Source: Streptosporangiaceae bacterium (lineage in GTDB: Bacteria > Actinomycetota > Actinomycetes > Streptosporangiales > Streptosporangiaceae). Taken from it: 12,008 nt of DNA. The notes under the pieces are model-generated. The model saw only the letters and a program-made list of their open reading frames with translations. It was not told the origin of the DNA and searched no databases. Shown here one piece after another: positions 3,547 through 10,000 of the stretch (its first letter is position 1; every line of letters begins with the position of its first letter). The stretch is from the NCBI GenBank assembly GCA_030050125.1, contig JASIJN010000299.1:1-12008 (forward strand), given 5' to 3'. The position numbers were made by a program, and so were the translations under genes.

Positions 3547-3571
3547 ATACCGTGCGACGACTCTAATCTTG

Positions 3572-3656
3572 CTACGGATCAGAAAGTTGGGGGTTCGAGT
3601 CCCTCCGAGCGCGCCACCGCAGCCGCAGGCAGACACCTTGATCACTCGGTGACCTC
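3572..3656 (+). repeat. Right direct repeat (attR-like): 3' half of tRNA-Arg without a 5' half
   Basis: Positions 3572-3618 repeat the tRNA-Arg sequence from the anticodon loop to just past CCA with one change (A3585). Positions 3619-3656 continue the similarity to 1002-1039. No D arm or 5' acceptor strand lies upstream, so no tRNA can form. Together with the intact gene at 924-999 this brackets about 2.6 kb. A decayed duplicate tRNA gene is the alternative reading, but the sharp 5' edge at the anticodon loop and the integrase scrap favour site-specific integration. Confidence 0.75.
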
Positions 3657-4831: not shown

Positions 4832-4874
4832 GGCACGAGCCAGAACTTCGTCGGTGTTTGGGGGAGAGCCAGAG
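4832..4874 (+). repeat. Direct repeat, copy 1 (G5 version)
   Basis: This stretch encodes GTSQNFVGVWGESQ in its intended frame and is nearly identical to copy 2 at 4967-5009. The differences are one third-position base (C4834 versus T) and the length of the G run: five Gs (4860-4864) here against six in copy 2. Confidence 0.85.
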
Positions 4875-4965
4875 TCCGGCGAGTGCCGGCCAGCCTGGCG
4901 TGTTCGGTACCAGCGCGAACTGGCAGGGTGTCCATGGTGAGAGCGTCGCTCAGGTGGGCGTGTTC

Positions 4966-5009
4966 GGTACGAGCCAGAACTTCGTCGGTGTTTGGGGGGA
5001 GAGCCAGAG
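4966..5009 (+). repeat. Direct repeat, copy 2 (G6 version)
   Basis: The same unit as 4832-4874 but with six Gs (4994-4999), which keeps the reading frame. It is the internal reference that shows copy 1 to be one G short. Confidence 0.85.
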
Positions 5010-5589
5010 CGACACCCAGCCGGGAGTTTACGGAACGGGACCTGTCATAGCCGCCAGCTTCCAAGGAAAGCTTCTGGTGAATGGCTCGGGCAGCTTCACA
5101 GGTGATGTTGAGGTGACCGGGGACGTATTGGTGGGAGGTGGCGATTGCGCGGAGGACTTCGCTGTCGTCGAAGGTGCCGCTGATTTCGGTCCTGGTACTG
5201 TGATGATCCTGACCGAGGGTGGTGCACTTCAACCGAGTCAGGACGCTTACGACAAGAAGGTGGCGGGGGTAGTTTCTGGGGCTGGGGATGCTCGGCCGGG
5301 CCTCATCCTAGGCAAAGAACACTCCTCTGAAAACCACATGCCGCTTGCGCTGGTGGGAAGCGTCTACTGTAAAGCCGATGCGCAATACGGACCAATAGAA
5401 GTGGGAGACTTGCTGACAACTTCCCCAACCGCAGGCCATGCCATGAGGGCTGCAGACCCGCTCAAGGCGTTCGGCGCGGTTATCGGGAAAGCGCTGCAAT
5501 CTCTGTCCTCAGGGCAAGGGCTAGTTCGCATACTTGTAGCCCTGCAGTAAGTCTGTCCGCCCTTCATACGCCTAGATAATCAATGCCCA

Positions 5590-7431: not shown

Positions 7432-8067
7432 GTGACCGGCCATTTGCCTCACACCCTGCGCTCCGACGCCCGGGACAACCGCGAACTCATCCTCGACGCG
7501 GCCCGTGCGGTGTTCGCCGCCGAGGGCCTGAACGTTCCGATGCGGGAGATCGCCCGCCGGGCCGGCGTCGGCCCCGCCACCCTGTACCGCCGCTTCCCGA
7601 CCAAGCAGGCGCTGGTCACCGAGGCCCTCGCGGGCCAGATGCGCGCGTGCCACGCCATCGTCGACGAGGGGCTCGCCGACCCCGACCCGTGGCACGGCTT
7701 CTGTCTGGTGATCGAGAAGATCTGTCAACTGCACGCACGCGACCGGAGCTTCACCGCAGCCTTCATGTCGGCCTTCCCCAACGCGATGGACTTCGCCGCG
7801 GACCGCGAATACGCGCTGCGCTCCATGGCCGGACTGGCTCGCCGCGCCAAGGATGCCGGCCGCCTTCGCGCCGACTTCGTGCTGGACGACCTGATTCTCA
7901 TGCTCATGGCCAACAGCAGCATCCGCGCCGCCTCGCCAGCCGCTGCGGTCGCGGCCTCCCGGCGTTTCGCCGCGCTCGCTATCCAGGCCTTTCAGGCCTC
8001 CCCAGAGGCCCCGGCGCTGCCGCCGGCAGCACGGCTGGCGCCGGCGCAGCGGAGTCGAAAACCTTGA
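7432..8067 (+). CDS. TetR-family transcriptional regulator
   Basis: A 211-residue repressor. The N-terminal DNA-binding domain is clear: RELILDAARAVFAAEGLN, then the helix-turn-helix VPMREIARRAGVGPATLYRR and FPTKQALVTEAL (about residues 16-65). An alpha-helical C-terminal domain of the usual size follows and presumably binds a small ligand. The start is uncertain: GTG at 7432 or GTG at 7423, both in frame. I prefer 7432 because 7423 lies too close to the possible -10 box. Neither has a good ribosome site, so the mRNA may be nearly leaderless. The frame is open far upstream, but that part lies over the divergent gene and is not credible. It probably represses the reductase at 6292-7281. Its last 30 codons overlap, on the opposite strand, the end of the methyltransferase gene. 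Confidence 0.9.
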   Translation: MTGHLPHTLRSDARDNRELILDAARAVFAAEGLNVPMREIARRAGVGPATLYRRFPTKQALVTEALAGQMRACHAIVDEGLADPDPWHGFCLVIEKICQLHARDRSFTAAFMSAFPNAMDFAADREYALRSMAGLARRAKDAGRLRADFVLDDLILMLMANSSIRAASPAAAVAASRRFAALAIQAFQASPEAPALPPAARLAPAQRSRKP

Positions 8068-9100
8068 CAATGCTCTTGGCCAGCAGGGGCGGCACCGAAT
8101 TGCCCAGCTGCGCCTGGACCGAGGCACGGCTGCCGACGAGCTCGAATTCGTCTGGGTAAGTGAACAGCCTCTTTATCTCCGCGATACGCAGCCGCCGGTT
8201 CTGCCAGTGGAACGGGCCGACATACGGCCCTGGCTGAGCCTGGATAGTAGGCGACGGTTTATCCGGAGAGAGTTTCAACAGGAACGACCAGTACTTGCTG
8301 CGCCAGCCGAAGACGGGATCGGGATGGCCGCGCTCGCTGGTGTAGAAGAGATAGTTGTCACCGGGGGGGATCGCGGGCAGGAGATGACCGTACTTGCCAT
8401 TCACTGTCTCTTCCGGCTCCGGGTCTGTCACGAGGCCAGCCAGCGCCTCCCCGGCGGTGACATGCGGACGTTGCGGATCACCGGTCACCCGCCGTTCCCA
8501 GCGCCCGCCGTGTGTCGGCGCCGGGAGAGACGGCAGAGGTTCATCCTTCGGCACGCCAATGATGAACAGGCGCGGCCGGGCCTGAGGCACGCCGTAGTCC
8601 GCGGCGTGAAGCACCTCGGCGTGGCAGTGGTATCCGGCCGCGTCGATCTCCCTCAGCAGCCGCTCGAACGCTGGCCTGCTGGCCTTGTTGTTGTACGTCA
8701 GCGCGTAGACGTTCTCCAGCACGAACCGCCGCGGCCGCGCCTCGGCCAGGATCCGGGTGTAGGCCTGCAACAAGGAGGCGCCCGGGTCCAGGCCCTCCCG
8801 CTTCCACTCCAGCCAGAACCCCGACTTGGAGAACGGCGTGCAGGGAGGTCCGCCGATCAGCAGGTCCAGCCGTTGTCCTGGCCGCAAGCCAGCCGCGCGG
8901 ATGATCTCGCGGGTTGGCGTGGCCATGATGTCCTTCTGCAGAACGGGGGAGGCGAGGTGACGGAAGTTCTTCTCCATCGTCGCCGCCGCGTCACGGTCCC
9001 ATTCGACCGCCGCCCTGACCTCATAGCCTGCCTGCTCCGCCCCCAGGTCGAGACCGCCCGCGCCAGAGAACAGGGAGATGGCGATGCCCTGAGCGCTCAC
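7979..9100 (-). CDS. DNA (cytosine-5-)-methyltransferase of a restriction-modification system
   Basis: A 373-residue m5C methyltransferase with the expected motifs in order: I SLFSGAGGLDLG (9-20, AdoMet site), IV GGPPCTPFS with catalytic Cys87, VI ENV (129-131), VIII QARPR (173-177), then a target-recognition region (about 185-295), IX SPTIQAQ, and X QLGNSVPPLLAKSI. It transfers a methyl group from AdoMet to C5 of a cytosine in a target that cannot be read from sequence. The start is GTG at 9100, preceded nine bases away by GGGAGG (9110-9115); the frame extends to a TTG at 9130, but that would place the ribosome site inside the gene. The Ala/Pro-rich last 24 residues lie beyond motif X and coincide with the overlap with the convergent TetR gene. 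It is downstream of the endonuclease gene with 75 bases between, probably one transcript. Confidence 0.95.
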   Translation of the reverse strand: MSAQGIAISLFSGAGGLDLGAEQAGYEVRAAVEWDRDAAATMEKNFRHLASPVLQKDIMATPTREIIRAAGLRPGQRLDLLIGGPPCTPFSKSGFWLEWKREGLDPGASLLQAYTRILAEARPRRFVLENVYALTYNNKASRPAFERLLREIDAAGYHCHAEVLHAADYGVPQARPRLFIIGVPKDEPLPSLPAPTHGGRWERRVTGDPQRPHVTAGEALAGLVTDPEPEETVNGKYGHLLPAIPPGDNYLFYTSERGHPDPVFGWRSKYWSFLLKLSPDKPSPTIQAQPGPYVGPFHWQNRRLRIAEIKRLFTYPDEFELVGSRASVQAQLGNSVPPLLAKSIVKVFDSAAPAPAVLPAAAPGPLGRPERPG

Positions 9101-9175
9101 GAAGACGATCCTCCCAGTAGGTAGTGACAAAGCCTGGCACCGGAGAGCCCGACACGCAGGGCGGATGACATCGGG

Positions 9176-10000
9176 TCAGCCCCCGCCTGGCTGCTGTCGT
9201 TTCCTCAGCTCGTTCAGTTCATCGTGGGCCGCCTTCAGCAGCCGCTGGAGCTGGGTTTGCACCTGCGGACTGACCCTGAAGGCGAACCGGCGCCAGTAGT
9301 CGTAGAACTCGGCGGAGGTCGCGAAGGCGCCCTCTCCTGACCGCAGCGCTTCGATGCTCGTCATTGCGCCGATGTACTCCCGGGTGGTGGAGGATCGCTC
9401 CCGGCTGGCGATGCGCCAGGGCTCCTGCACGATGATCTCCAGGTCCTCGACGCGGGCGTTGTTCCCAGGATTGAGGGTATAGATCATGATCACGTCGAGG
9501 TGCGAGCCGTAGTCGTTGAACGGGCGGATGGTTCCCGGCCAGTGCAGCTCTGGCCACTTGAAGTAGGTGTTACCGGTGTAGAGGGTGATCCTGCTCTGTG
9601 TCTTCCGCCCGTTGGGCGCCCGCCGGGCGGCCTTGATGTCCACCGCGTGAAAGCCTCCGCCGAACGTCGGGCCCGCGAACTCGAGGTCGGGATAGCCGCG
9701 CTCGCTTCCCCGGCGCACCTGCACCTGGGGAATCAGCAGCGCCCGCAGCGTCAAGAAGTTCACGATCGACACTTCTAGGACGTTTGCCAGGGCGGCCGGC
9801 TCACTGGGGAGTGGCAGCAAGTGGCCACCTTGCGTGAGCCGTTCCTCCAGTTCCGCCGGTCCGGCCGCCTCCAGCGGCCACGAGGACAGATCGCTGTCCC
9901 GCTGGAATACCCCGGCCACGTTGAACCGGTAGTCCGCACACTGCTCGCGGAGCCAGGCGCGTAGATCAAGCGGTTTCGCCACACTGCAAGAGCCTGCCAC
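9176..10000 (-). CDS. EcoRV-like type II restriction endonuclease
   Basis: A 274-residue protein with a PD-(D/E)XK nuclease core: YPDLEF (Asp105) and AVDIKAA (Asp121, Lys123). The 16-residue spacing between the two Asp and the D-I-K form equal those of EcoRV (Asp74, Asp90, Lys92). Further EcoRV-like landmarks follow in order: SRITLYTGNTYFKW (136-149), RPFNDYGSHLDVIMIY (159-174), VQEPWRIA (191-198), a variable loop SRERSSTTREYIG (199-211), and GEGAFATSAEFYDYWRRF (222-239), recalling EcoRV's GKGIFDSEDEFLDYWRNY. It should cut unmethylated DNA as a dimer with Mg2+. The loop equivalent to EcoRV's recognition loop differs, so the target need not be GATATC. The start is GTG at 10000 or GTG at 9982; neither has a clear ribosome site. 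It precedes the m5C methyltransferase, an order that would normally need regulation to avoid self-cutting. Confidence 0.82.
   Translation of the reverse strand: MAGSCSVAKPLDLRAWLREQCADYRFNVAGVFQRDSDLSSWPLEAAGPAELEERLTQGGHLLPLPSEPAALANVLEVSIVNFLTLRALLIPQVQVRRGSERGYPDLEFAGPTFGGGFHAVDIKAARRAPNGRKTQSRITLYTGNTYFKWPELHWPGTIRPFNDYGSHLDVIMIYTLNPGNNARVEDLEIIVQEPWRIASRERSSTTREYIGAMTSIEALRSGEGAFATSAEFYDYWRRFAFRVSPQVQTQLQRLLKAAHDELNELRKRQQPGGG

Follow-up and report, generated by a model that had tools for sequence, protein, structure and literature searches.

Textbooks use EcoRV to illustrate indirect readout, and to show how hard it is to alter the specificity of a restriction enzyme. The EcoRV restriction-modification (R-M) system, on E. 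coli plasmid pLG13, combines the nuclease with a Dam/D12 adenine methyltransferase (MTase); a first-pass annotation of the DNA treated here had named an adenine MTase as the partner, which the record annotation and a match to PF02086 confirm, and a gene for a helix-turn-helix (HTH) regulator lies between the two. In the wider beta class of EcoRV-like enzymes, NlaIV is partnered by a cytosine-5 (m5C) MTase and PvuII by an N4-cytosine MTase. The partner of HincII is a gamma-class adenine MTase (PMC4081073). The present work concerns the window, a stretch of 12,008 nucleotides from a Streptosporangiaceae bacterium (contig JASIJN010000299.1), in which an EcoRV-family nuclease gene and an m5C MTase gene form a two-gene unit on the minus strand, nuclease first, and the HTH regulator gene is absent. 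Very probably this pair is a Type II R-M system whose two enzymes share a cytosine-containing site other than GATATC.

An EcoRV-family nuclease next to a cytosine-5 methyltransferase

The two genes, the gap and the catalytic lysine codon lie as follows (ORF, open reading frame):

9176..9982, minus strand: EcoRV-family nuclease gene, likely start GTG 9982 (268 aa); a longer ORF runs from GTG 10000 (274 aa)
9632..9634, minus strand: codon of the catalytic Lys123 (EcoRV Lys92), worked out from the ORF start in 274-aa numbering
9101..9175, minus strand: intergenic gap of 75 bp, with a ribosome-binding-like stretch, GGGAGGA, just before the MTase start
7979..9100, minus strand: cytosine-5 DNA MTase gene, likely start GTG 9100 (373 aa); the ORF reaches TTG 9130

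The nuclease ORF (9176-10000) encodes 274 residues counted from its first GTG; as the nearest homologue (P0001, 98% identical) has 268 residues, the GTG at 9982 is the likely start. The protein matches Pfam PF09233 (Endonuc-EcoRV) with 45.6 bits (curated cut-off 25, E 7.9e-12), as do 16 of the 16 relatives searched, and phmmer against the PDB (E up to 10) returned eight distinct sequences, every one of them EcoRV (best E 4.8e-5). NlaIV, a blunt cutter of GGNNCC, belongs to a separate nuclease family without a phmmer match to the window nuclease, and HincII and SwaI likewise have no sequence match to it. The predicted model has the EcoRV fold, with about 23% identity to EcoRV in the structural alignment. 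Residues E76, D105, D121 and K123 correspond to EcoRV E45, D74, D90 and K92 and are invariant or at least 90% conserved, Lys123 being invariant in the alignments of relatives; the active site, D105-x15-D121-x-K123, has the spacing of EcoRV D74/D90/K92. We class the protein as an EcoRV-family nuclease of the PD-(D/E)XK type. The first-pass annotation had placed it in the EcoRV family from a core read as D-x16-D-I-K, one residue too long, and from a C-terminal G-x-G-x-F...EF-x-DYWR block, which is present as GEGAF...EFYDYWR; family profile and predicted fold both bear the assignment out.

The MTase ORF (7979-9130) matches positions 4-320 of the 324 of PF00145 over its residues 18-356 (181.8 bits) and TIGR00675 with 159.5 bits, and contains FSGAGG, GGPPC, ENV and QLGNS, which we take to be the catalytic motifs of C5-cytosine MTases. 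With this near full-length match it is a complete cytosine-5 DNA MTase, and the earlier description of a full m5C enzyme 75 bp downstream in the same direction stands. GTG 9100 is the likely start because a 99% identical homologue (P0121) has 373 residues. The best PDB match of the catalytic half is M.HaeIII (E 2.5e-26); since the phmmer alignment omits most of MTase residues 207-309, no specificity can be transferred from it.

Conservation of the pairing and contrast with canonical loci

One genome per species was scanned with a 22-row nuclease alignment (the window and 21 relatives), which yielded 43 loci. An m5C MTase adjoins the nuclease in 40 of them; the exceptions are an MTase fragment (L043) and two loci at contig ends without an MTase (L026, L042). 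The most divergent MTase (L024) is 37% identical over 194 residues, yet scores 151 bits against PF00145. Hosts span five phyla, including Actinomycetota, Pseudomonadota, Myxococcota, Thermodesulfobacteriota and Binatota. Without three loci with broken or partial frames (L031, L040, L043) and the two lacking an MTase (L026, L042), and with the window added, 39 rows remained, of which 24 are nuclease-then-MTase tandems, 12 have the genes on opposite strands and three have the MTase upstream. The distance matrices of nuclease and MTase correlate with r 0.43, a value that leaves shared ancestry in and that 0 of 2000 permutations reached. Adjacent nuclease and DNA MTase genes are thus kept as a pair, as expected of a Type II R-M system. 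Chance does not account for the observation: of 3281 candidates, 1683 are homologues of the nuclease at E<=0.001, and the pairing is conserved.

For comparison, 32 canonical EcoRV-type loci were assembled (five genome, seven plasmid from 7 of 12 records opened, 19 virus-contig and one halovirus), a sampling of the EcoRV family that is our own and not exhaustive. A Dam/D12 MTase adjoins the nuclease in 17 of the 32 (5/5 genome loci, 7/7 opened plasmid loci, the EcoRV locus L242 itself among them, and 5/19 virus-contig loci); all four of the canonical MTases scanned match PF02086, and the remaining ones were classed by record annotation or by BLASTP or profile likeness. The other 15 loci (14 virus contigs and the halovirus) have no MTase relative in the DNA examined around the nuclease, and none of the 32 matches the window MTase (BLASTP, 1e-5). 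In a quick tree of 58 nucleases, computed without bootstraps, all 39 m5C-partnered nucleases fall on one side of a branch with an SH-aLRT of 100, and a single change of partner class suffices if four solitary viral rows are left uncounted. By profile search, the loci of the window branch lack the Dam/D12 adenine-N6 MTase that marks the GATATC group.

The first-pass annotation had suggested that mixed-class partnering in this family would be a new R-M arrangement, which is overstated. Several MTase classes are already known in the wider beta-class group, and mixed partnering is not new in principle; as far as our searches show, the m5C branch within PF09233 is the only new element. Among the matches listed, the open-access literature holds no description of it; REBASE may list such genes as putative.

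Some further observations concern the distribution of both groups. The canonical nucleases pair with two D12 subtypes (L055-L057 and L059 against L058 and L223-L227), of which one resembles Dam and the other has a QGSK start region. Short solitary EcoRV-family nucleases without an MTase relative in the DNA examined occur in 13 virus contigs that are 94-100% alike (L228-L240) and in Halogranum tailed virus 1 (L044), whose loop, GSGTTNNIG, is of canonical type. The plasmid collection holds no nuclease relatives, and the phage collection only two records, both of one halovirus, at 29% identity. A putative viral contig from IMG/VR (L222, 36118 bases) carries the nuclease and an m5C MTase in tandem; its identity values are the same as for the Lentzea locus L005, and it may be the same region called as a provirus. 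In one Mycobacterium genome (G747:C1:637657-643439, L139-L143), two sets of pieces about 5.3 kb apart match the nuclease alignment, perhaps a decayed, duplicated copy.

Replacement of the DNA-reading loops

The coordinates of the two loops were calculated from the ORF start and window sequence, with residues in 274-aa numbering:

9686..9706, minus strand: Q-loop region, residues 99-105, reading SERGYPD where EcoRV has QQNHYPD (68-74)
9365..9397, minus strand: R-loop region, residues 202-212, reading RSSTTREYIGA where EcoRV has AGSGNTTNIGS (181-191)

EcoRV residues 182-188 (GSGNTTN) align with SSTTREY, and all R-loop residues from Gly182 to Asn188 differ except Ser183. In the Q loop, Q68-Q69-N70-H71 are replaced by S-E-R-G, and the position of Lys38 is taken by Ala69. 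Where the GATATC group has Lys38 and the R loop GSGNTxNIG, the window nuclease has Ala69 and SSTTREYIG. The 22 rows show no variation at Ala69 or in residues 202-212; all 39 genome rows, window included, have the R loop as RSS[TKM]TREY[IL]GA and the Q loop as xERxYPD. In the canonical relatives, GSGNT and the lysine at the Lys38 position are invariant (alignment of five rows). Because the new residues are conserved among relatives and the canonical ones separately so, the change marks a branch and not a single protein. Judged from the sequence, the parts that read DNA have been rebuilt, so that the site is probably not GATATC.

Search for the target site

Up to eight carriers, and controls from the same genera, were examined for avoidance of candidate sites. 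Maximum-order Markov counts were obtained for 64 six-base palindromes in six carriers and then compared with pooled controls; 37 other loci were pooled without controls; and a half-site model was applied to 1328 plain and gapped palindromes, followed by two more carriers, a per-chunk comparison, and a bootstrap and position check. Chunks below 15 kb were left out of the per-chunk and the bootstrap and position tests, which kept 15 of 20 Mycobacterium control chunks and, in the per-chunk comparison, 5 of 10 Gordonia and 9 of 10 Microbacterium chunks.

A weak lead, which would be a special case of a shared non-GATATC site, is AGCGCT (cut AGC/GCT). In six Mycobacteriaceae carriers 402 sites were observed where 659 were expected (observed/expected ratio, O/E, 0.61), against 108 where 119 were expected (O/E 0.91) in the 15 control chunks, with a z of -3.74. 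It was chosen after all palindromes had been viewed, and carriers and controls do not differ clearly in either Gordonia (0.64 vs 0.70) or Microbacterium (0.69 vs 0.66). As control chunks themselves vary, with 1.02 at the starts of contigs above 4 Mb and 0.77 in draft controls (carrier first chunks, 0.78), chunk position may explain much of the signal, and AGCGCT is very unlikely to be the target.

Two other palindromes were set aside. TCCGGA was low in six of six carriers by the half-site model, but of two carriers added later (0.78, 1.11) one did not bear this out. GAGCTC is strongly depleted only in two sister species (G008 and G016; 345 and 309 sites, against 1081-1805 in the other four Mycobacterium carriers); as both share further m5C MTase genes, the depletion is not assignable to the present system, and GAGCTC is perhaps the target of another R-M system there. 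In these two Mycolicibacterium species (L190, L195, L210, L211), where the depletion is five-fold, one pair of the extra m5C MTase genes adjoins an ORF that we named Vsr-like by eye. Near the MTase start, the most widely shared palindrome occurs in no more than 5 of the 23 tandem loci compared (24 were tried; L001 failed the search pattern).

The MTase itself offers a further view of the target. Across the 39 rows its mean conservation is highest in residues 281-300 (0.85, gap-rich tail apart; 0.92 in the tandem group) and lies at 0.55-0.71, below the catalytic parts, in residues 201-280 (0.68-0.81 in the tandem group). In other m5C MTases the stretch corresponding to residues 201-280 reads DNA, and we presume that these residues are part of the target-recognition region. 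On this premise the tandem group is likely to have a single target, which is less certain of the branch as a whole. The search for specificity among MTase relatives turned up no characterised enzyme whose target region matches. The phage collection holds no relatives of the window MTase, and six plasmid records match it, four of which were opened. The closest, on a plasmid of Amycolatopsis sp. AA4 (L218, 5001-6074), is 67% identical; beside it there is no nuclease named by Pfam or PADLOC and no relative of the window nuclease, and its upstream neighbour presumably is a methionine synthase relative, judged by eye. Two of the other three adjoin HNH or PLD-type nucleases, and one lies among unnamed genes.

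Proposed system and alternatives

By analogy with EcoRV, the nuclease would probably act as a homodimer and cut a palindromic site at its centre, leaving blunt ends. This site is probably not GATATC, given that the sequence-reading parts are rebuilt; it would contain a cytosine and probably be GC-richer, and the adjoining MTase would methylate a cytosine within it, which would block cleavage and protect the host. Of the two options named at first pass, a different, perhaps GC-richer site is favoured. It is possible, though short of probable, that the m5C branch reads a palindrome rich in GC, whose central step may be CG or GC, by means of the rebuilt R loop (Arg207/Glu208) and Q loop (Glu100/Arg101) and without Lys38, which in EcoRV enters the minor groove at the centre of GATATC; the family would then have given up reading a bendable TA step indirectly, adopted another readout of the centre and changed its MTase class as well. 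A widespread natural branch that has the EcoRV catalytic core but new loops, lacks Lys38 and differs in its protecting chemistry permits a direct comparison with EcoRV, lets one ask how a restriction family changes its site and its partner together, and may supply a new specificity for laboratory use.

Several observations weigh against a shared non-GATATC site. No palindrome was depleted in all carriers relative to controls, among up to eight carriers, an absence that a recent gain of the system would explain. Carriers are sporadic (5/148, 1/149, 3/59 and 3/297 in the genome draws, counts that include the genomes on which each draw was centred and in which the hits G747 and G1185 are fragments). 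The lower conservation of MTase residues 201-280 makes one target across the branch uncertain. The Amycolatopsis plasmid relative, without an adjoining nuclease relative, indicates that the MTase can stand alone; it is possibly an orphan descendant of the system. Finally, GATATC gives a combined z of -3.36 for six carriers against controls in the cruder half-site model, on few sites.

This last value favours the reading of the nuclease as an EcoRV isoschizomer, cutting GATATC or a GATATC-like site that the MTase protects on its outer cytosine (GATAT-m5C), the other option of the first-pass annotation. Such an enzyme would also fit the shared family, predicted fold and catalytic spacing, and GATATC does contain a C. 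The half-site ratios behind the z value, however, scatter from 0.20 to 1.94, and the Markov model finds no avoidance (89 observed and 94 expected in carriers; O/E 0.94, vs 1.06 in controls). The new R-loop residues hold in 39 of 39 rows, save one position that is T, K or M, all four of Q68, Q69, N70 and H71 are replaced, and the lysine invariant in the five canonical rows is an alanine invariant in 22. With R loop, Q loop and Lys38 all exchanged for largely conserved residues, an isoschizomer is very unlikely, and protection of a GATATC-like site on its outer C is disfavoured.

A system with a shared non-GATATC site also has to be set against separate targets, in which an adenine MTase elsewhere in the genome would protect the nuclease site, a finding that the first-pass annotation had named as counting against the pairing. 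Carriers do often hold other MTases, with PF01555 in 9 and PF02086 in 5 of 18 genomes. Beside the nuclease, profiles built from 13 D12/Dam-type MTases of canonical loci (threshold E 0.1), among which N4-cytosine and other amino-MTase families were not included, had 0 matches when run on the 43 loci and the window (2731 frames) and recovered 17 of 17 in canonical loci. Seven of the 18 carrier genomes match neither PF02086 nor PF01555, in a search that left aside Type I enzymes and further adenine MTase families. Together with the m5C MTase that adjoins the nuclease in 40 of the 43 loci, in five phyla and several gene orders, these counts make a remote adenine MTase protecting the nuclease site unlikely, and separate targets for the two enzymes highly improbable. 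Of 23 carriers searched, 10 (8/15 and 2/8) have no PF00145 match besides the partner. That m5C directs the nuclease instead of blocking it is extremely improbable, and nothing observed here favours it: modification-dependent nucleases with PD-(D/E)XK folds exist, but one encoded beside the gene that makes its mark would cut its own host.

Other features of the window

The ORF 4858-5550 repeats motifs of the G-V-[FWH]-G type; Pfam gave it no match at E 0.01. A tRNA-Arg gene lies at 924-999; its 3' part and about 40 bp of flank (924-1039 region) are repeated at 3566-3656 (91 nt, 89% identical, 2617 bp further on), as might be left by a small element integrating at the tRNA.
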